Part shown: in pieces, positions 5,243-13,186 of the stretch
Layout: every line of letters starts with the position of its first letter
Position numbering within the stretch: the stretch's first letter is position 1
Source: Streptomyces spectabilis
GTDB taxonomy: Bacteria; Actinomycetota; Actinomycetes; Streptomycetales; Streptomycetaceae
DNA length: 64,000 nt
Assembly: GCF_008704795.1 (NCBI RefSeq)
Contig: NZ_CP023690.1
Location: 806,001-870,000 of the forward strand
Direction of reading: 5' to 3'
Notes under the pieces: model-generated
What the model was told of the DNA's origin: nothing
Databases searched by the model: none
The model's input: only the letters and a program-made list of their open reading frames with translations
Translations under genes and position numbers: made by a program

Positions 5243-6808
5243 TCAACGCCTCGCTCCCGCAGGCTCCTTGCTCTCTTCGGGGTCCGCCGTGTCACCGGCG
5301 GGCGGTTCTCGGTCTGCCGCCGCCACCGTCTTCTCGTGACGTTCGGACCACACCGTGAGGGCCGTCGAGCAGGCGTGGTCCAGGTGGCGAAGGCCCGTCA
5401 GGTCGAGTTCGGTCCTGCGGTCGCCGGGGAGTGCCTCCAGCTGGTCGAGGATCTTCGGAAGGCGCAGGAACGTGGCGTTGCCGACCACGCGGACGCGGAT
5501 CGTGCCGGTGCCTTCGAGGCCCTCGACCTCCAGGTGCACGTGGGAGGTGTCCCAGGCCGTCTTGACGATGGCGAGCGCCAGGCCGATGAGGACGCCCTCG
5601 AACATGTTGGTCGCCACGATCGCGAGCGCGGTGACCGCGAGGACGAGGGCCTCGCCGCGGTGCTCGCGCCACAGCGGCCCGAACGCCTTGACGGGGATGA
5701 GCTTCCAGCCCGCGTGGATCAGGACTCCGGCGAGCGCCGCCACCGGTATGACGCCGAGCGCCGCGGGGAAGGCCGCGGCGAAGGCCAGGAGCCACACGCC
5801 GTGCAGCACCCGGGACGCCTTGGTCCTGGCCCCGGCCTGCACGTTGGCGGCGCTGCGCACGATCACCGCGGTCATCGGAAGGGCGCCGAGCGCCCCGCAC
5901 ACCGCGTTGCCCGCGCCCTGGGCCATCAGCTCCTTGTCGTAGTCGGTGCGCGGACCGTCGTGCATGCGGTCCACGGCCGCCGCGCTGAACAGCGACTCGG
6001 CGGACGCGATCAGGGTGAAGGCGAGCACGGTGCCGATCGCGCCCGCGAGGGCGCCGCCTTCCACGAGGGCGGAGAACGCGTCGCCGCCGGGCGGCTGCAC
6101 CGCGTCCACCAACCCCTGCACCTCGACCTTCGCCACCGGCAGGTCGAAGGCGAAGACGGCGAGCGTGGCCAGGGCGACCGCGGCGAGCGGCCCGGGCAGC
6201 ACCTGGGCGGCCTTCCGCCACCGCGGCCACAGCACCAAGACGGCGATGGTGCCGGTGCCGACGGCGAACGCGGCCAGGGCGTCGCCGGAGCCGGCCGTGT
6301 CGGCGGCGAGCCGGGGCAGTTCGGCCAGCTTGTCGAGGCCGGACGCGGGCGCCTTGGCGTCGACGAGCGCGTACAGCTGTCCGGCGATGAGGACGAGGCC
6401 GATGCCCGCGAGCATCCCCTGGACCACCGCCACGGATATCGCGCGGAACCAGCGGCCGAGGCGCAGCGCTCCCATCGCCAGCTGGAGGAGCCCGGCGATC
6501 AGCACCAGGGCGCCGAGCGCCGCGATGCCGTACTCCCGCACGGCCTCGTACACGAGGACGGTCAGACCGGCGGCGGGGCCGCTGACCTGGAGGCTGCTGC
6601 CGGGCAGCAGACCGGTCAGGAGGCCGCCGACGATGCCGGTGACCAGACCCAGCTCGGCCGGTACGCCGGAGGCGACGGCCACCCCGACGCACAGGGGGAC
6701 GGCGACGAGGAAGACCACGATCGACGCGGTGAAGTCCGCGCGCAGTGTGGAGAGGTCACGCACTGGGGGCCTTTTCATGGTCGGTACGTCAGCTTTCATG
6801 GGTTTCAC
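5243..6808 (-). CDS. SulP family anion transporter (bicarbonate or sulfate), with STAS-like tail
   Basis: This 521-residue membrane transporter starts with the family signature region ADFTASIVVFLVAVPLCVGVA and has about 10-12 hydrophobic segments. A STAS-like C-terminal domain follows (about residues 420-500, containing TELDLTGLRHLDHACS). The carbonic anhydrase gene lies immediately upstream on the same strand with a 15-base gap. In bacteria, SulP carriers encoded next to or fused with carbonic anhydrases are usually read as bicarbonate transporters, so bicarbonate is more likely than sulfate here. The GTG at 6808 follows GGGGAA; ATG codons at 6799 and 6778 are alternative starts. Confidence 0.85.
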   Translation of the reverse strand: MKPMKADVPTMKRPPVRDLSTLRADFTASIVVFLVAVPLCVGVAVASGVPAELGLVTGIVGGLLTGLLPGSSLQVSGPAAGLTVLVYEAVREYGIAALGALVLIAGLLQLAMGALRLGRWFRAISVAVVQGMLAGIGLVLIAGQLYALVDAKAPASGLDKLAELPRLAADTAGSGDALAAFAVGTGTIAVLVLWPRWRKAAQVLPGPLAAVALATLAVFAFDLPVAKVEVQGLVDAVQPPGGDAFSALVEGGALAGAIGTVLAFTLIASAESLFSAAAVDRMHDGPRTDYDKELMAQGAGNAVCGALGALPMTAVIVRSAANVQAGARTKASRVLHGVWLLAFAAAFPAALGVIPVAALAGVLIHAGWKLIPVKAFGPLWREHRGEALVLAVTALAIVATNMFEGVLIGLALAIVKTAWDTSHVHLEVEGLEGTGTIRVRVVGNATFLRLPKILDQLEALPGDRRTELDLTGLRHLDHACSTALTVWSERHEKTVAAADREPPAGDTADPEESKEPAGARR

Positions 6809-6823: not shown

Positions 6824-7426
6824 TCACAGCGGGAGGAACAGGTCGGTCTCGGCGTGATGGGCCGCCACCAGGCCGGTGTGGACCTCGTAGTACCAGCCGT
6901 GCAGACGGACGTCGCCGCTCTCCAGGCGCTCGCGGACGCACGGGTAGCCGCGCAGGCGTGCCAGCTGTTCGCGCACGTGGCGCTGGACGGCGGCGGCGAC
7001 CGCGGGCCCGTCGTCGGCGGGCAGTTCGCTGGACAGCTGGCGGTCGAGCCAGTCCCGTACGGCGGGCAGCTCGGCGAGGTCCTCGCCGCGGGCCTTGGCG
7101 CCGACGGCGCCGCAGTGCGAGTGGCCGCAGACGACGATGTCGGCGACGCCCAGGACGCGCATCGCGTACTCGATGGTGGCGCCTTCCGAGCTGGCGGGCC
7201 GGTCCGCCTCGTAGGGGGGCACCGCGTTGCCCGCGGTGCGCAGCTCGAAGAGGTCGCCGGGGCGGGCGCCGGTGATCAGGGAGGGTACGACCCGGGAGTC
7301 GGAGCAGGTGATGAAGAGGGCGAGCGGGGACTGCCCGGCGGCGAGCCGTCCGAACGTCTCCTGTTCCTCGCGGCGTTCGGCGATGCGGGCGGTCATGCCG
7401 CGGGCGTGCGTGATGAAGGTCTCCAT
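6824..7426 (-). CDS. Beta-class carbonic anhydrase
   Basis: This enzyme interconverts CO2 and bicarbonate in the cytosol. The protein has 200 residues from ATG at 7426, with AGGAGA about 10 bases upstream. Zinc ligands are visible in CSDSR (Cys, with the Asp-Arg dyad) and CGHSHCGAV (His, Cys), as in beta-class enzymes. A longer open frame extends upstream to 7831, but it is low-complexity Arg/Pro sequence outside the family. Its stop lies 15 bases before the SulP transporter, so the two are probably cotranscribed and act together in bicarbonate handling. Confidence 0.93.
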   Translation of the reverse strand: METFITHARGMTARIAERREEQETFGRLAAGQSPLALFITCSDSRVVPSLITGARPGDLFELRTAGNAVPPYEADRPASSEGATIEYAMRVLGVADIVVCGHSHCGAVGAKARGEDLAELPAVRDWLDRQLSSELPADDGPAVAAAVQRHVREQLARLRGYPCVRERLESGDVRLHGWYYEVHTGLVAAHHAETDLFLPL

Positions 7427-8050: not shown

Positions 8051-8617
8051 TCAACTGCCGCCCGCTTCCTGAGGAGTGGTCACCGCGGTCAGCTCGCTGA
8101 TCTCGGACAGCGTCATGCCGAGCTGCTCGTGCAGGAAGCGCACGATCGTCCAGTGCGGCAGCGCGCCCTCGTCGAAGGGGCCGAACTCCCTCACGTACAG
8201 CGGGATCCAGCGCAGCGCCTCCTCTATCGCCTGCTCCCTGCCCGGCTCGCGCTGGTAGTCCTCGTACGCGATGCTGCGGTGCTCGATGAAGAACCCGCCG
8301 GGCAGGCGCTGGGCGCACAGGGCGCGGTACTCGCGGGTCTGCAGGATCAGGTAGTGCCAGATCTCGTCGATCTCCTGCTCCACGGGGAGGAAGAGACCGC
8401 TGAGCCGGTCCGGGTGGCGGGAGACGAGGTAGAGGTAGCGCAGACACTCGGTGACCTGGCGCTCGACGTACTCCTGCGGGGCGTCGGTCGCCGCGGCGAA
8501 GTGCGCCACCACCTCGGCGTGCAGGCCGTCGCCGAGGAGGGCGGCGAGGTCCGCGGCGGACACGTGGTCGACGGCGGGCGCGAGGGGGGCGGCGGACGCG
8601 ATCGGCTGCGTGGTCAT
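8051..8617 (-). CDS. GRDP-like (glycine-rich domain-containing protein-like) cytosolic protein
   Basis: This 188-residue soluble protein contains IDEIWHYLILQTREYRALC (near residues 84-102) followed by FIEH. This recalls the (V/I)DE(V/I)WH...H/L..T..Y...C signature of the GRDP-like/DUF1399 family, whose function is unknown. The ATG at 8617 follows GGGAGC. The gene is 34 bases downstream of the PaaK-like adenylating enzyme and in the same transcription unit as the GCIS-repeat peptide, so a role in modifying or handling that peptide is possible. There are no transmembrane segments and no signal peptide. The family call rests on motif reading only. Confidence 0.7.
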   Translation of the reverse strand: MTTQPIASAAPLAPAVDHVSAADLAALLGDGLHAEVVAHFAAATDAPQEYVERQVTECLRYLYLVSRHPDRLSGLFLPVEQEIDEIWHYLILQTREYRALCAQRLPGGFFIEHRSIAYEDYQREPGREQAIEEALRWIPLYVREFGPFDEGALPHWTIVRFLHEQLGMTLSEISELTAVTTPQEAGGS

Positions 8618-8651: not shown

Positions 8652-9899
8652 TCAGGTGTCCTTGGCGAGCCAGGCGTATTTGCCCGAGCCGCCGATGGGG
8701 ATGTGCGCCCGGTGGTCCAGGGCGGTGTCCCGTCCGGTGAGTGCGGCGACGCCGTGGCGCAGCGCGTCGGCCTCGACGGGTGCGAGCGGGGCGCCGTCGA
8801 AGGTCGTGTAGTGCAGCAGCGCGCGGGACGGGTCGCGGGCGTCGAGCTGGTGGACGAAGACGCGGGGCGACGCGGCGGTGACCACGTCGTCGAGGTCCCC
8901 TTGCGCCACGGGGCCGTGCGGGGTCTTCAGGAGTTCCTTCTCGCGGCCGCAGAACCGTGTGATGCGGGCCGGGTCGGGCGAGCCGTCGGCGGTGCGCACG
9001 CAGTCGCCGGAGCGGTAACGCACCAGCGGCATGTGCGGGTTGCGCACGCTGGTCACGATGAGGTGGTGGATGCGGCTGCCCGGCTCCACGGGGATCAGCT
9101 CGACACTCATCCGGTCCAGGTACGGCCGGTAGGCGCCGGTGCGGTCGCTGTAGAAGAGGTAGCCGAGTTCGGTGCTGCCGAACAGGTCGACGACCGGGCA
9201 GGAGAAGTGGTGCTGGAGGTAGCGCCGCACGTTGAGCGGCGCGTACTCGTACGCGTGCACGATGCTCGCGGGCCGCGGGAAGGACGCCCACAGGCCCCAG
9301 TCGACGGCCTTGCGCACCAGGTGCGCGAGATGGGGTCCGGAGCAGTCCAGGTGGTACCGGCCGCGGGGGTGAGCGGCCTGTGCGGTACGGATCTCCTCGA
9401 TCATGCGCTCGACGTCCGCGCGGTCCCACAGGGCCGGGTCGCGGCGCAGGTTGACGTAGAACGTCCGCTCGTCCAGACGCCGCTGGTCGAGGTCCGGCAA
9501 CGGGTCGGGCTCGGCCTCGGGCCCGCCGCGCTTGCGGGCGTTGACGCGGGCGACGTGCTCGGTGGCGAGGACGGTGGTGAGGGAGACCCGGCGGCATCCC
9601 TCGTGCCAGGTGTCGGCGATGTCGGGGTGCTCGCTCCACAGCCGGTAGTAGGAGTTGAGCAGGAAGTACGGGGGCCGGATGATCTGCATCCGCGCGTGGT
9701 TGGTGCCCGTGGAGAGCACGAACTCCGCTTCGCCGGCGGCGAGGGCGGCCGCCAGGGTGGGGGTCATCCAGTTGTCGGGAAAGCCACGGGCTATCTCCGG
9801 CTTCTCCAGAATGGGGAAGTGGCCACGCTCGACGTACGGCCGGTAGATCGGTATGTCCTTGACCTGGGCGATGACGTCGGAACTGGGCTGACCGTTCAT
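8652..9899 (-). CDS. Adenylate-forming enzyme, PaaK / coenzyme F390 synthetase-like
   Basis: The enzyme probably activates a carboxylate as an acyl-adenylate. The protein has 415 residues from ATG at 9899, which follows GAAGGGTGG; the frame upstream of that is low-complexity. Core motifs are LSTGTNHARMQI (a variant of the phosphate-binding A3 loop, near residue 70), FGSTELGYLFY (A5-like) and YRSGDCVRT (A7/A8-like, Asp binding ribose). It lacks phosphopantetheine and condensation domains. Length and order match stand-alone PaaK/F390-synthetase relatives. It follows the GCIS-repeat peptide gene by 95 bases, across a hairpin, and precedes the GRDP-like gene. The substrate could be the peptide C-terminus or a small acid; this is inference. 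Confidence 0.8.
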   Translation of the reverse strand: MNGQPSSDVIAQVKDIPIYRPYVERGHFPILEKPEIARGFPDNWMTPTLAAALAAGEAEFVLSTGTNHARMQIIRPPYFLLNSYYRLWSEHPDIADTWHEGCRRVSLTTVLATEHVARVNARKRGGPEAEPDPLPDLDQRRLDERTFYVNLRRDPALWDRADVERMIEEIRTAQAAHPRGRYHLDCSGPHLAHLVRKAVDWGLWASFPRPASIVHAYEYAPLNVRRYLQHHFSCPVVDLFGSTELGYLFYSDRTGAYRPYLDRMSVELIPVEPGSRIHHLIVTSVRNPHMPLVRYRSGDCVRTADGSPDPARITRFCGREKELLKTPHGPVAQGDLDDVVTAASPRVFVHQLDARDPSRALLHYTTFDGAPLAPVEADALRHGVAALTGRDTALDHRAHIPIGGSGKYAWLAKDT

Positions 9900-9936: not shown

Positions 9937-9966
9937 GGCCCGGCACGCCCGGAGGCGTGCCGGGCC
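9937..9966 (-). terminator. Hairpin between peptide gene and adenylating enzyme (attenuator-like)
   Basis: A perfect 13-bp inverted repeat (arms 9937-9949 and 9954-9966, 4-base loop) lies between the stop of the 50-residue peptide and the start of the PaaK-like gene. Partial terminators or processing hairpins at this place are common in RiPP operons, where they keep the precursor transcript in excess of the enzyme transcript. Confidence 0.75.
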
Positions 9967-9994: not shown

Positions 9995-10147
9995 TCAGGA
10001 AATACAGCCGGACTTCACCGAGGCGCTGATGCAGCCGGACTTGTCCGCGCTGATGCAGCCTTCCTTTCCGGACACCTTCGGCGAGTTCAGGGCGGTCCAC
10101 TGGTTCCAGACATCGTCCTTGGCCATCTTCGCGATGAGCTTTTCCAC
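9995..10147 (-). CDS. Putative RiPP precursor peptide with three GCIS repeats
   Basis: A 50-residue frame from GTG at 10147, preceded by GGAGGTGCGAC (ribosome site GGAGGT). It starts MEKLIAKMAKDDVWNQW, a likely helical leader. After LNSPKVSGKE come three copies of Gly-Cys-Ile-Ser at residues 30-33, 38-41 and 47-50, each preceded by Lys-Glu or Lys-Ser. The last Ser is the C-terminus. The first two copies use TGC ATC AGC, the third TGT ATT TCC, so the repeat is kept at protein level rather than by a recent DNA duplication. Downstream lie a hairpin, an adenylating enzyme and a GRDP-like protein. This layout (short leader plus repetitive Cys/Ser core before enzymes) is typical of ribosomally made, modified peptides. 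I do not recognise the family. Confidence 0.75.
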   Translation of the reverse strand: MEKLIAKMAKDDVWNQWTALNSPKVSGKEGCISADKSGCISASVKSGCIS

Positions 10148-10453
10148 GTCGCACCTCCAGGGAAGGGTGGGGTTGCGCGGCGGGGCTGTCGCCCGTTCAC
10201 CGCCGCAATCGAAAGTAAAAGCAACACCAAGTCGAAGTCAAAGGCGAGCAATGCGCCACTGGCTCAAAAGCCGTCGGGAGCAGCGACTTTGGCTTGATCC
10301 TTTGGGGCGCGCGGGGCGCTATTCACCTTCTCTTCACCAATGTGACAGGAAATGTGCACGGGTGGAGCCAGGGGTCAAAAGGGATCAACCAACTGGAGCG
10401 AACTCAAGGGCGCTTACAGCGGAACGTTCACCGAAAAGGGGGTGATCCGGGGG
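10148..10453. promoter_or_regulatory. Upstream region of the GCIS-repeat peptide operon, with candidate promoter
   Basis: This 306-base gap is noticeably richer in A/T than its surroundings. On the minus strand TTGACT (10236-10241) and TACTTT (10212-10217) are separated by 18 bases and make a plausible promoter about 65 bases before the peptide start. TTCACC occurs twice near 10322-10338 and might be an operator. A near-palindrome CCGGGGGTTAACGCCCGG (10447-10464) overlaps the methyltransferase stop. No other gene is seen here. Confidence 0.5.
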
Positions 10454-11302
10454 TTAACGCCCGGTGGGCTCCGCGCGCCAGAGGAAGACTTCGGTACTCG
10501 GGGCGCGCTCGGCGAAGCGGCCCGACGGGGAGGTCGCCCGCAGCAGGTCGCGCAGGTCCGACTCGAAGGCGCGGCGGCGCGGCCCGAAGAGGTGCGGGGC
10601 CGAGAACGACATCGAGAACACCCCGGCCACGACGTCGTCGTCCGTGCGCTCCAGCGCCTGCCCGCCGGGAACGACGAGGCGCTCGGGCCCCAAGAGACCC
10701 GCCCGGGCGAACACCGCGGCCTCGCCGCCCGGCGTCCCCTGCGGCAGCACGCCGCGACCCGCCCGCCTGACCGGCCCCAGATAGCGCCTGACCAGCTCGT
10801 CCATCGCGGCGTACGGCACCGGCGGGTGCGGCAGACCCGCGACGGACCGGTCCTCCGTCTTCAGGTCCGAGAGGTGCGCGAGGGCGCCGCCGGGGCGCAG
10901 CATGCCCCGTGCCGCCCACGCCACCAGGTCGCGGTCCATCCAGTGGAAGGACTGGGCGAAGGCCACCACGGTGAAGGTGCCGAGACCGGCGGGCAGGTCT
11001 TCGGCCCGGGCCTGCACCCAGACGGCCTTTTCGGCCACTCCCTGCTCGGCAGCCCCGCGCCGGGCCTCGGCGATCATCCCGCCGTCGGGGTCGAGCCCGA
11101 CGATCTCAGCGAAGGCGTGCGCGAGCCGCAGCGCGATGGTGCCGGGGCCGCAGCCCACGTCGAGCAGGCGCCCCCGCCCGTCGAGCCCCAACGCCTCGGT
11201 GAGGGCGTCCGCGAGGCCGGGCGCGTACGGGAGTCGTCCACGCCGGTAGTACGCGGCCGTACCGGAGAACAAGGTGTCGTCCCATTGCCATCCGGACGCC
11301 AT
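10454..11302 (-). CDS. Class I SAM-dependent methyltransferase
   Basis: The protein has 282 residues from ATG at 11302. The SAM-binding motif I LLDVGCGPGTIAL is near residues 44-56, the acidic loop GLDPDGGMI follows at 68-76, and FAQSFHWMD at 117-125 is typical of UbiE/SmtA-like small-molecule methyltransferases. The substrate is unknown. It lies 306 bases upstream of the GCIS-repeat peptide gene on the same strand, but a separate promoter is likely in between, so participation in that locus is only a possibility. A GAAGGGCGG ribosome site lies about 11 bases before the start. Confidence 0.82.
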   Translation of the reverse strand: MASGWQWDDTLFSGTAAYYRRGRLPYAPGLADALTEALGLDGRGRLLDVGCGPGTIALRLAHAFAEIVGLDPDGGMIAEARRGAAEQGVAEKAVWVQARAEDLPAGLGTFTVVAFAQSFHWMDRDLVAWAARGMLRPGGALAHLSDLKTEDRSVAGLPHPPVPYAAMDELVRRYLGPVRRAGRGVLPQGTPGGEAAVFARAGLLGPERLVVPGGQALERTDDDVVAGVFSMSFSAPHLFGPRRRAFESDLRDLLRATSPSGRFAERAPSTEVFLWRAEPTGR

Positions 11303-11465
11303 GTCGGCGCACCGCCCTTCGCGGGAGATCCGAGCGCGGAAGCGTCGATGATTCCACGGCGGGGGCGGGGCAGCGACCTCATTTCCGCGTGGCGCGCGCC
11401 CGGTGGCGGGGAGCGCCCGCCGCAGTGCGCGCGGCGGGTCCGCGCGGCGGGCGCGCGCCGAGGGC

Positions 11466-12659
11466 TCACACGAAGGGCGTGATCCGCTCCTCGACGCCGA
11501 GGAGCAGCTTGCCGTAGATCTCCCTGCCCACCGCGGGCGTGGCGACCGCGTGCCGCCCGGCGGTGCTGGCGTCCCGCCAGATCCGCTGGAGCGGGTTGGC
11601 GTCGGCGAAGGAACCGCCGCCGTGCACGTTGAGCAGGGTGTTGATCGCTTCGAGGACGTTCTTGATGGCGTGTCCGCTGTCCGCGCGGACCCGGGCGCGG
11701 ATCAGCACGTCGAGGTCGCCGCCGCGGGCGGCGGCCTCGTCGATGTCCGCGGCCGCGCGGCGCACGTGCAGCTGCGCCGTGTCGATCTTCATGGCGGCCT
11801 CCGCCACCTCCAGCTGCACGGCCACCGAATCCGCCTGCGTCTCGTAGTACGTGTACGAGATCGGCTTGGTCCCGGCCTTCTCGGTGACCAGCTTCAACGC
11901 GGCGCGGCCCAGGCCGATCTGGGGCCCGGCGAGGCCCAGGGCGAGCAGCGGTGAGAGCGAGGAGCGGAACAGGCCGGTGTCCCCGTGCACCGTCGGCAGC
12001 GCGCCGTCGATCGCCCGGGGCACGGAGATGACCCGGTGCTCGGGCACGAAGACGTCCTCGGCGATCAGGCAGTTGCTGCCGGTGCCGCGCATTCCGGCGA
12101 CGTGCCAGACGTCCTGTATCTCCACGTCCGTGCGCGGCACCAGGGCCATCGCCTGGTCGACCACCTCGCCGTCCTCATCGGTGAGCGGCAGGCCGAGGAC
12201 GGCCCACGTGGAGTGCCAGGCACCGGAGTTGTAGTACCAGCGGCCTGACACCCGCCAGCCGCCGTCGACCCGGCGGCTGGTGGCGGTGGGACCGAAGACG
12301 CCGGTGACCCGCGCGTCGGTGCCCGCGCCGAAGACTTCCTCCTGGGCCTGGAGGGGGAACAGCGCGGCCAGCCAGTTGCAGGTGTTGACCACGGCCACCA
12401 CCCAGGAGGTGGAGCCGTCGCCCTCGGCCAGCTCGGCCGACACGTCCACCAGGGTGCGCATGTCGGTCTCGTATCCGCCGAAGCGCCGCGGCACGGTCAG
12501 TTTGAAGAGCCCGGCGTCCGTCAGCGCGTCGATCACTTCGTCGGTGATCCTGCGCTCCGCCTCGATCCTGGGGGCGTGCTCGCACAGCAGGGGCCGCAGC
12601 GCGGCGGCACGCGCCACGAACTCGGCGGTGGTCGGGACGGTGGTGTCGGTGGTGGTCAT
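11466..12659 (-). CDS. Flavin-dependent monooxygenase, acyl-CoA dehydrogenase fold (group D oxygenase component)
   Basis: This enzyme is likely the oxygenase half of a two-component flavin monooxygenase that hydroxylates an aromatic or polyketide substrate with reduced flavin. It shows the acyl-CoA dehydrogenase-like order: helical N-terminus, beta domain (WRVSGRWYYNSGAWHSTWAV, WHVAGMRGTGS), and C-terminal helices ending LLNVHGGGSFADANPLQRIWRD, as in HsaA and related hydroxylases. The start is taken at 12659, where GGAG lies 6 bases upstream. An in-frame ATG at 12707 overlaps the reductase stop as ATGA and is the alternative (413 residues). The upstream gene encodes the matching flavin reductase. 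Confidence 0.85.
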   Translation of the reverse strand: MTTTDTTVPTTAEFVARAAALRPLLCEHAPRIEAERRITDEVIDALTDAGLFKLTVPRRFGGYETDMRTLVDVSAELAEGDGSTSWVVAVVNTCNWLAALFPLQAQEEVFGAGTDARVTGVFGPTATSRRVDGGWRVSGRWYYNSGAWHSTWAVLGLPLTDEDGEVVDQAMALVPRTDVEIQDVWHVAGMRGTGSNCLIAEDVFVPEHRVISVPRAIDGALPTVHGDTGLFRSSLSPLLALGLAGPQIGLGRAALKLVTEKAGTKPISYTYYETQADSVAVQLEVAEAAMKIDTAQLHVRRAAADIDEAAARGGDLDVLIRARVRADSGHAIKNVLEAINTLLNVHGGGSFADANPLQRIWRDASTAGRHAVATPAVGREIYGKLLLGVEERITPFV

Positions 12660-12703
12660 GTCTGTCTCCATGGTGTGCACACGTGTCAGGGAAGAGGTGC
12701 CGG

Positions 12704-13186
12704 TCATGCGACCGGGGCGAACGCGGAGTGCGTGCCGAAGGTGCGGTGGCCGTAGACCAGCGGCGCCGCCGTGGCCGTGCGGGCGTGGACGACCGTCCCG
12801 AGCAGCAGTCGGTGGTCACCGCCCGCGACGGCCGACGTCAGCTCGCACACGAGCCAGCCCGGCGCGTCCGGCAGCCGGGGAAGGTCGTGGTCGTACTCCC
12901 AGCGGACCGAGTCGAAGCGGTTCGCGGACCGGCCCGCGAAGCGCAGCGCCAGCGCCTTCTGCTCCGCTCCGAGCACGTTCACGCCGAACCGCCCGGTGGT
13001 CTGGATGCGGGCGAGCAGGCCCGACGCGCGGTCCAGGGCCACCGACACCATCGGTGGGCGCAGCGAGAGCGAGGCGAAGGCGCTGACGGTCGATCCGTGC
13101 GGCGTCCCGCCCTCGGCGGCGGTCACGACGGTCACCGGGGCGCAGACCCCGGCCATCAGATCCCGGAAGTCCTGTTCGGTCATCAT
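12704..13186 (-). CDS. Flavin reductase, HpaC/HsaB-like
   Basis: This 160-residue reductase supplies FMNH2 or FADH2 to the adjacent monooxygenase. It belongs to the flavin reductase-like FMN-binding family: early VTVVTA, then GSTVSAFASLSLRPPMVSVALDR (residues 31-53) and a C-terminal HRLLLGTVVHA. The start has two adjacent ATG codons (13186 and 13183) after GGAGGGGA. The stop lies at the upstream start of the oxygenase frame, which supports cotranscription. The divergent GntR gene and the inverted repeat between them suggest local control. Confidence 0.88.
   Translation of the reverse strand: MMTEQDFRDLMAGVCAPVTVVTAAEGGTPHGSTVSAFASLSLRPPMVSVALDRASGLLARIQTTGRFGVNVLGAEQKALALRFAGRSANRFDSVRWEYDHDLPRLPDAPGWLVCELTSAVAGGDHRLLLGTVVHARTATAAPLVYGHRTFGTHSAFAPVA

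Follow-up and report, generated by a model that had tools for sequence, protein, structure and literature searches.

The window, by which we mean the whole 64,000-nucleotide stretch of Streptomyces spectabilis DNA analysed here, encodes on its minus strand a 50-residue peptide that is probably a RiPP-type precursor whose modification involves the PaaK-fold ligase encoded beside it. A more specific reading, which we hold tentatively and at rather less than even chances, is that the cassette represents a new RiPP class with a CoA-independent PaaK-fold ligase as its key maturase. This enzyme would acylate or arylate every K-x-G-C-I-S unit of the precursor, a GRDP-related protein helping, and bicarbonate or another anion may feed the chemistry via a neighbouring carbonic anhydrase and SulP transporter. 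A RiPP precursor had been proposed in the first-pass annotation of this DNA; the selected leader and units, together with linked and co-inherited partners, support that proposal, as a candidate only. We know of no RiPP class that the cassette fits, and no description of it was found in the open-licence literature, among the matches listed, in titles and abstract openings.

The precursor gene

9995..10147, minus strand: precursor peptide gene, with leader residues 1-22 and three K-x-G-C-I-S units (K28-S33, K36-S41 and K45-S50)
10154..10158, minus strand: ribosome binding site GGAGG, six bases 5' of the precursor GTG

Read on the minus strand from 10147 to 9995, the frame opens with a GTG start codon and translates into the 50 residues VEKLIAKMAKDDVWNQWTALNSPKVSGKEGCISADKSGCISASVKSGCIS. 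The frame had been pointed out previously with its strand unstated; it exists, and the strand is minus. The GTG start and ribosome site, also noted then, were found as described, with GGAGG at 10158-10154, six bases upstream of the start codon, and GGAGG-like sites lie 5' of the start codon in precursor relatives too. Translation likewise confirmed the three GCIS blocks, the length of 50 residues, the cysteines at positions 31, 39 and 48 (a spacing of 8-9 residues) and the terminal serine.

The different codons of the third GCIS copy had been taken as a sign of selection on the peptide. The difference is real, copies 1 and 2 having TGC ATC AGC and copy 3 TGT ATT TCC, but it is a weaker argument for selection than was written. 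The Ser codon of unit 3 is TCC in 46 of 49 loci, and the codon difference is therefore old and family-wide.

The precursor family and selection on its units

A phmmer search with the precursor matched 35 proteins, with E-values from 1e-24 to 4e-5 and 100% query coverage in each case, one of them being the window's own cluster. All those with an organism name are from Streptomyces, and those with a source name are mostly labelled hypothetical protein. The alignment of 36 rows has 16 invariant positions, located in the leader (E2, K3, L4, I5, W14, W17, N21 and S22) and in the units; across the larger genome set Q, H, A or R frequently replaces K3, and D can occur at position 2. Of 392 Streptomyces genomes, 49 (roughly an eighth of the sample) gave strong matches to the precursor profile (E < 1e-10), a count that leaves aside 11 further genomes with weak matches only (best E 0.003 to 0.09). 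Among 394 genomes from the class, the profile matched seven at E <= 0.001, namely six Streptomyces and one genome of another family (G620), whose precursor carries two units, ...TKDGCISKKQGCISKG, after the same kind of leader.

The number of units ranges from two (in G620 and L084) to four (in L070, L085 and L086). The C-terminus is GCIS in the 49 automatically aligned loci, save for GRIS in L081, and deviant ends occur in L084 (GCISR) and G620 (GCISKG). In L081 (about 9999-10154) the third unit has decayed to APGRIS, the first two units being intact.

Selection was gauged by a Nei-Gojobori-type count of pN/pS, given as raw values uncorrected for multiple hits, on 49 aligned coding sequences, a set that leaves out two loci recognised by eye (L078 and L084). 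The ratio was 0.04 over the twelve GCIS codons, 0.28 over residues 28-50, 0.53 over leader residues 2-22 and 0.68 over the eight linker positions, and silent changes were common (pS about 0.4). Cysteine is retained at 146 of 147 aligned unit positions, and a lysine stands ahead of units 1, 2 and 3 in 49, 48 and 48 of the 49 rows, respectively. The K-x-G-C-I/V-S unit is held by extreme purifying selection on GCIS, the leader is held moderately and the spacers drift. Constant units between drifting spacers would be expected if enzymes or targets see the unit and the spacers act as cut sites or tethers. Judged by its sequence relatives, the 50-residue frame is a real gene and not a chance one, and it encodes a short precursor with conserved leader and core, as in RiPPs.

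Linked genes and co-inheritance

8652..9899, minus strand: PaaK-fold adenylating enzyme (ligase), 415 aa, ATG start picked by alignment
8051..8617, minus strand: GRDP-related all-helical protein, 188 aa, candidate partner

Gene neighbourhoods were compared over 51 oriented loci, made up of 47 from the genome set, the window and L007-L009 (G102 and L010 were left out, the latter since its contig is as long as that of G361), using a home-made frame picker followed by clustering. Downstream of the precursor and on the same strand, a PaaK-like gene is present in 50 of the 51 loci and a GRDP-related gene in 49; the loci missing partners, L053 and L094, both lie at contig ends. Across the 392 Streptomyces genomes the precursor was found in 49, the PaaK-like gene in 48 (E <= 1e-60, more distant PaaK-like genes falling outside the count) and the GRDP-related gene in 49 (E <= 1e-20), with all three together in 48. 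None of the 48 PaaK-like genes occurs without the precursor, and the one precursor found alone, in G081, is at a contig end. Since the genomes are related, these co-occurrence counts are not independent trials. The ligase is a co-located, co-inherited candidate modifying enzyme, and, on the test that had been set beforehand, the relatives of the peptide are not random frames, GCIS and leader being conserved and the PaaK-like and GRDP-related genes linked. A partial GRDP-related match in a genome with neither precursor nor PaaK-like gene (G303:C17:635896-636249) is perhaps the remnant of a lost cassette. The GRDP-related gene of G163 has an internal stop.

An MFS transporter gene, identified by the Pfam match of one representative, lies 3' of the GRDP-related gene in 33 of the 51 loci; it is not in that position in the other 18 and is absent beside the window cassette. 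No other biosynthetic gene is constantly linked to the cassette over the 51 loci, and no dedicated peptidase was recognised near it when the neighbours were viewed, short of a systematic peptidase scan. The conserved front half and the repeats travel with the ligase and helical-partner genes, so a peptide natural product is probably made from the precursor.

The same linkage bears on a different idea, that of a metal- or thiol-buffering (metallothionein-like) peptide whose cysteines bind metal while the neighbouring genes act elsewhere. The even spacing of the cysteines, 8-9 residues in the window, would suit such a role, but Gly, Ile/Val, Ser and Lys are needed as much as Cys, some relatives have two cysteines only, and the strict linkage to the ligase would go unexplained. 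We consider this highly improbable.

Control signals

10211..10241, minus strand: putative promoter block TTGACT...ACTTGG...CTTTTACTTTC, which begins 94 bases upstream of the start codon
9937..9966, minus strand: perfect 13-bp hairpin, possible attenuator, between the precursor and ligase genes

The pattern TTGA[CA]-N14-20-TTTTACnTTC was found in its strict form 91-112 bases upstream of the start in 29 of 49 loci, 21 of these 29 having CTTGG within the spacer, and looser forms of the block are visible in other loci. The block is absent from L067, L068, L073 and L094, where a SulP gene lies upstream on the same strand and the peptide gene may be transcribed from the SulP side. Of 48 precursor-ligase gaps, 22 contain a perfect stem of at least 8 bp, a feature of 8% of mononucleotide shuffles. 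Stem sequences vary among loci, and no T-run follows the window hairpin at 9937..9966. Such a layout of promoter and hairpin would yield more precursor than enzyme.

In the window and 21 more of the 48 loci, a short frame with Cys codons has a hairpin behind it. This also recalls upstream regulation, for instance by a cysteine-attenuation leader, in which the frame would control the ligase operon and its peptide would serve no purpose of its own. Cysteine-attenuation leaders have a run of consecutive Cys codons and are otherwise free in amino-acid sequence. Here the Cys codons stand 8-9 residues apart, the protein sequence of unit and leader is under selection with silent changes frequent (pS about 0.4), and the downstream genes are unlike those of cysteine synthesis, all of which leaves a regulatory frame only a very slight chance of being correct.

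The PaaK-fold ligase

The PaaK-like label of the first-pass annotation is borne out by the fold and by profile matches to solved structures but not by Pfam, in which no family matched the window ligase at E up to 10. One of 40 ligase relatives gave an AMP-binding match, with an E of 0.05. Lacking the Pfam AMP-binding match, the enzyme is filed here as PaaK-fold, on a divergent branch. Its structural model has a mean pLDDT of 87 and is weak over the stretch that contains the phosphate loop (residues 61-78); compared with PaaK-type ligases it gave a Foldseek E of about 1e-14 and a TM of about 0.6, at 13-19% identity and 6-7 A rmsd. A profile search of PDB sequences returned ClxA first (E 2e-6), followed by AjiA1, PaaK1 and NatL2. 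The motifs STGT, GSTE, YRSGD and GR and a C-terminal GK are invariant in all 40 rows of alignment A3, and we take STGT, GSTE, YRSGD and the C-terminal GK, from their usual roles, to be adenylation-type motifs. The ligase would activate a carboxylate and then transfer it to a peptide side chain.

The CoA-independent PaaK-type ligases NatL2, AjiA1 and ClxA have the fold in common with the window ligase and are among its best profile matches in solved structures. These enzymes join small molecules, whereas the strict partner here is a ribosomal peptide, and identity is 13-19%. In the parts of the source covered, NatL2 (nataxazole) is described as forming an ester between two aryl acids via acyl-AMP and as locked against CoA (PMC7204872). 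NatL2 has a zinc amidohydrolase partner, whereas none was seen at this cassette. If the RiPP-type reading is true, PaaK-fold ligases become a peptide-maturation enzyme family. Profile-based mining is likely to miss them, because the window ligase has no Pfam match and only one of 40 relatives touches AMP-binding.

Proposed maturation and known systems

In the scheme that we propose, the leader would bind the ligase and/or the GRDP-related protein, and the ligase would activate a small carboxylic acid as acyl-AMP. The acid would then be joined to a side chain of each unit, with the Cys thiol as the likeliest site and a possible onward transfer to the adjacent Ser or Lys. The helical GRDP-related protein might present the peptide or perform a second step, a protease encoded elsewhere would cut the loosely conserved linkers, and the short units would then be exported. 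As the exact step, acylation of Cys is possible but doubtful. No known RiPP maturase, leader-binding domain or RRE was matched in the two partner proteins with general profiles, as distinct from dedicated RRE models. RiPPs need not all have a known maturase family or recognition element.

It counts against this scheme that the unit lacks any conserved carboxylate, which leaves only an outside source or the C-terminus for the acid. The missing MFS gene of the window, the degenerate third unit of L081, the internal stop in G163 and the loose superposition of the ligase model weigh against it too. Alternatively, the ligase could activate the peptide's own C-terminus, usually ...GCIS-COOH, and join it to an amine, only the last unit being core. 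The ligase is expected to adenylate a carboxylate as its half-reaction, and a GCIS terminus is found throughout the 49 automatically aligned loci bar L081 (GRIS). The ends GCISR in L084 and GCISKG in G620 do not suit such a reaction, nor does the constraint on the inner units, which is as strong as on the last, and we judge it quite improbable.

LuxE loads an acid on its own Cys as a thioester. The peptide could similarly be a reusable thiol carrier, in which an acid is loaded on the unit Cys as a thioester and offloaded by the GRDP-related protein into a small molecule, the tandem units only raising capacity. Identical units, freely drifting linkers and a variable unit number would all be accounted for, as would the nearly invariant Cys with its following Ser and the PaaK-type fold. 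Such a carrier nonetheless appears unlikely, in that a conserved leader apart from the units is more typical of a processed precursor and no further biosynthetic gene is constantly linked.

The RiPP-type reading has several partial parallels. Cyanobactins and omega-ester peptides are RiPPs with several core copies per precursor, and they have in common with this cassette a leader, tandem near-identical units, drifting spacers and adjoining candidate enzymes. Unlike these multi-core RiPPs, the genes profile-scanned beside the window peptide include no YcaO, radical SAM, ATP-grasp or lanthionine enzyme, and the only strictly linked candidate enzyme is the PaaK-fold ligase. In thiopeptides, side-chain ligases such as NosI are adenylating enzymes that attach an aryl acid to a peptide Cys; NosI would be a precedent, but the precursor and neighbours differ. 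The decRiPPter candidate families of Streptomyces follow the same logic as this cassette in the parts of the source covered, being sparsely distributed and having Cys/Ser-rich precursors in operons with enzymes (PMC7794033). The main text of that source contains none of the terms AMP-binding, adenylat- or phenylacetate, and no such family is named in the parts covered (PMC7794033).

The GRDP-related protein

The model of the 188-residue protein is all-helical, with a mean pLDDT of 80, and gave no structural match of weight. Against PF07173 the window protein gave no match at E up to 10, and the GRDP-like label given earlier depends on a single bridging sequence, L128, with a score of 22.5 bits (the PF07173 cut-off is 22.7) and an alignment to profile A2 at E 1.5e-7. 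The protein is named GRDP-related rather than a PF07173 member, because this only bridge is itself just below the cut-off. Invariant Cys, His, Trp and Asp/Glu residues are present in the alignment, and our guess is that they could form a catalytic or metal site. If the cassette is of RiPP type, it would offer the first testable role for a GRDP-related protein.

Nine distant GRDP-related proteins from further loci in the class (L126, L127, L129, L130, L131, L133, L135, L136 and L137) have a Cys-rich C-terminal tail, for example ...ADCNEPTCCGDGPCC and ...CGSCADEGNCSASGKDGDEN, which gives them the look of a large leader joined to a core. A gene that looks by eye like a small-molecule kinase lies beside the distant GRDP-related gene in L127 and L135.

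Carbonic anhydrase, SulP and other neighbours

6824..7426, minus strand: carbonic anhydrase, conserved part of a 335-codon frame (Pro_CA, E 2e-41), cassette membership unsure
5243..6808, minus strand: SulP-family anion transporter (Sulfate_transp, E 9e-60), cassette membership unsure

A carbonic anhydrase and/or SulP gene is found near the cassette in 37 of the 51 loci, within a stretch of ~20 kb for most. The placement is downstream on the same strand in 22 loci, upstream on the opposite strand in 8 and upstream on the same strand in 7, with none in 14. An anhydrase query gave 2-5 matches per genome in 12 genomes checked, so that few anhydrase genes should lie near the cassette by chance. The four placement states require at least 11 changes on the ligase tree (50 rows). 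Six rows with the upstream, opposite-strand placement fall within a group whose other members are mostly downstream; the anhydrases of these six have 51-55% identity to that of the window, against 68-80% otherwise. The repeated changes of placement hint that these genes are functionally tied to the cassette, but local rearrangement within a shared chromosomal neighbourhood could also produce the pattern. A link to bicarbonate or anion supply is possible.

Upstream of the precursor, the window carries at 10454-13186 (minus strand) a methyltransferase, an HsaA/acyl-CoA-dehydrogenase-type oxygenase and a flavin-reductase-like frame. The first two have relatives in only 4 and 3 of the 51 loci, respectively, and these genes are therefore probably unrelated to the cassette. 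In 11 related loci a protein of about 580 residues, presumably resembling a HypX-type hydrogenase maturation factor, is encoded on the opposite strand ~2.1 kb upstream of the precursor.
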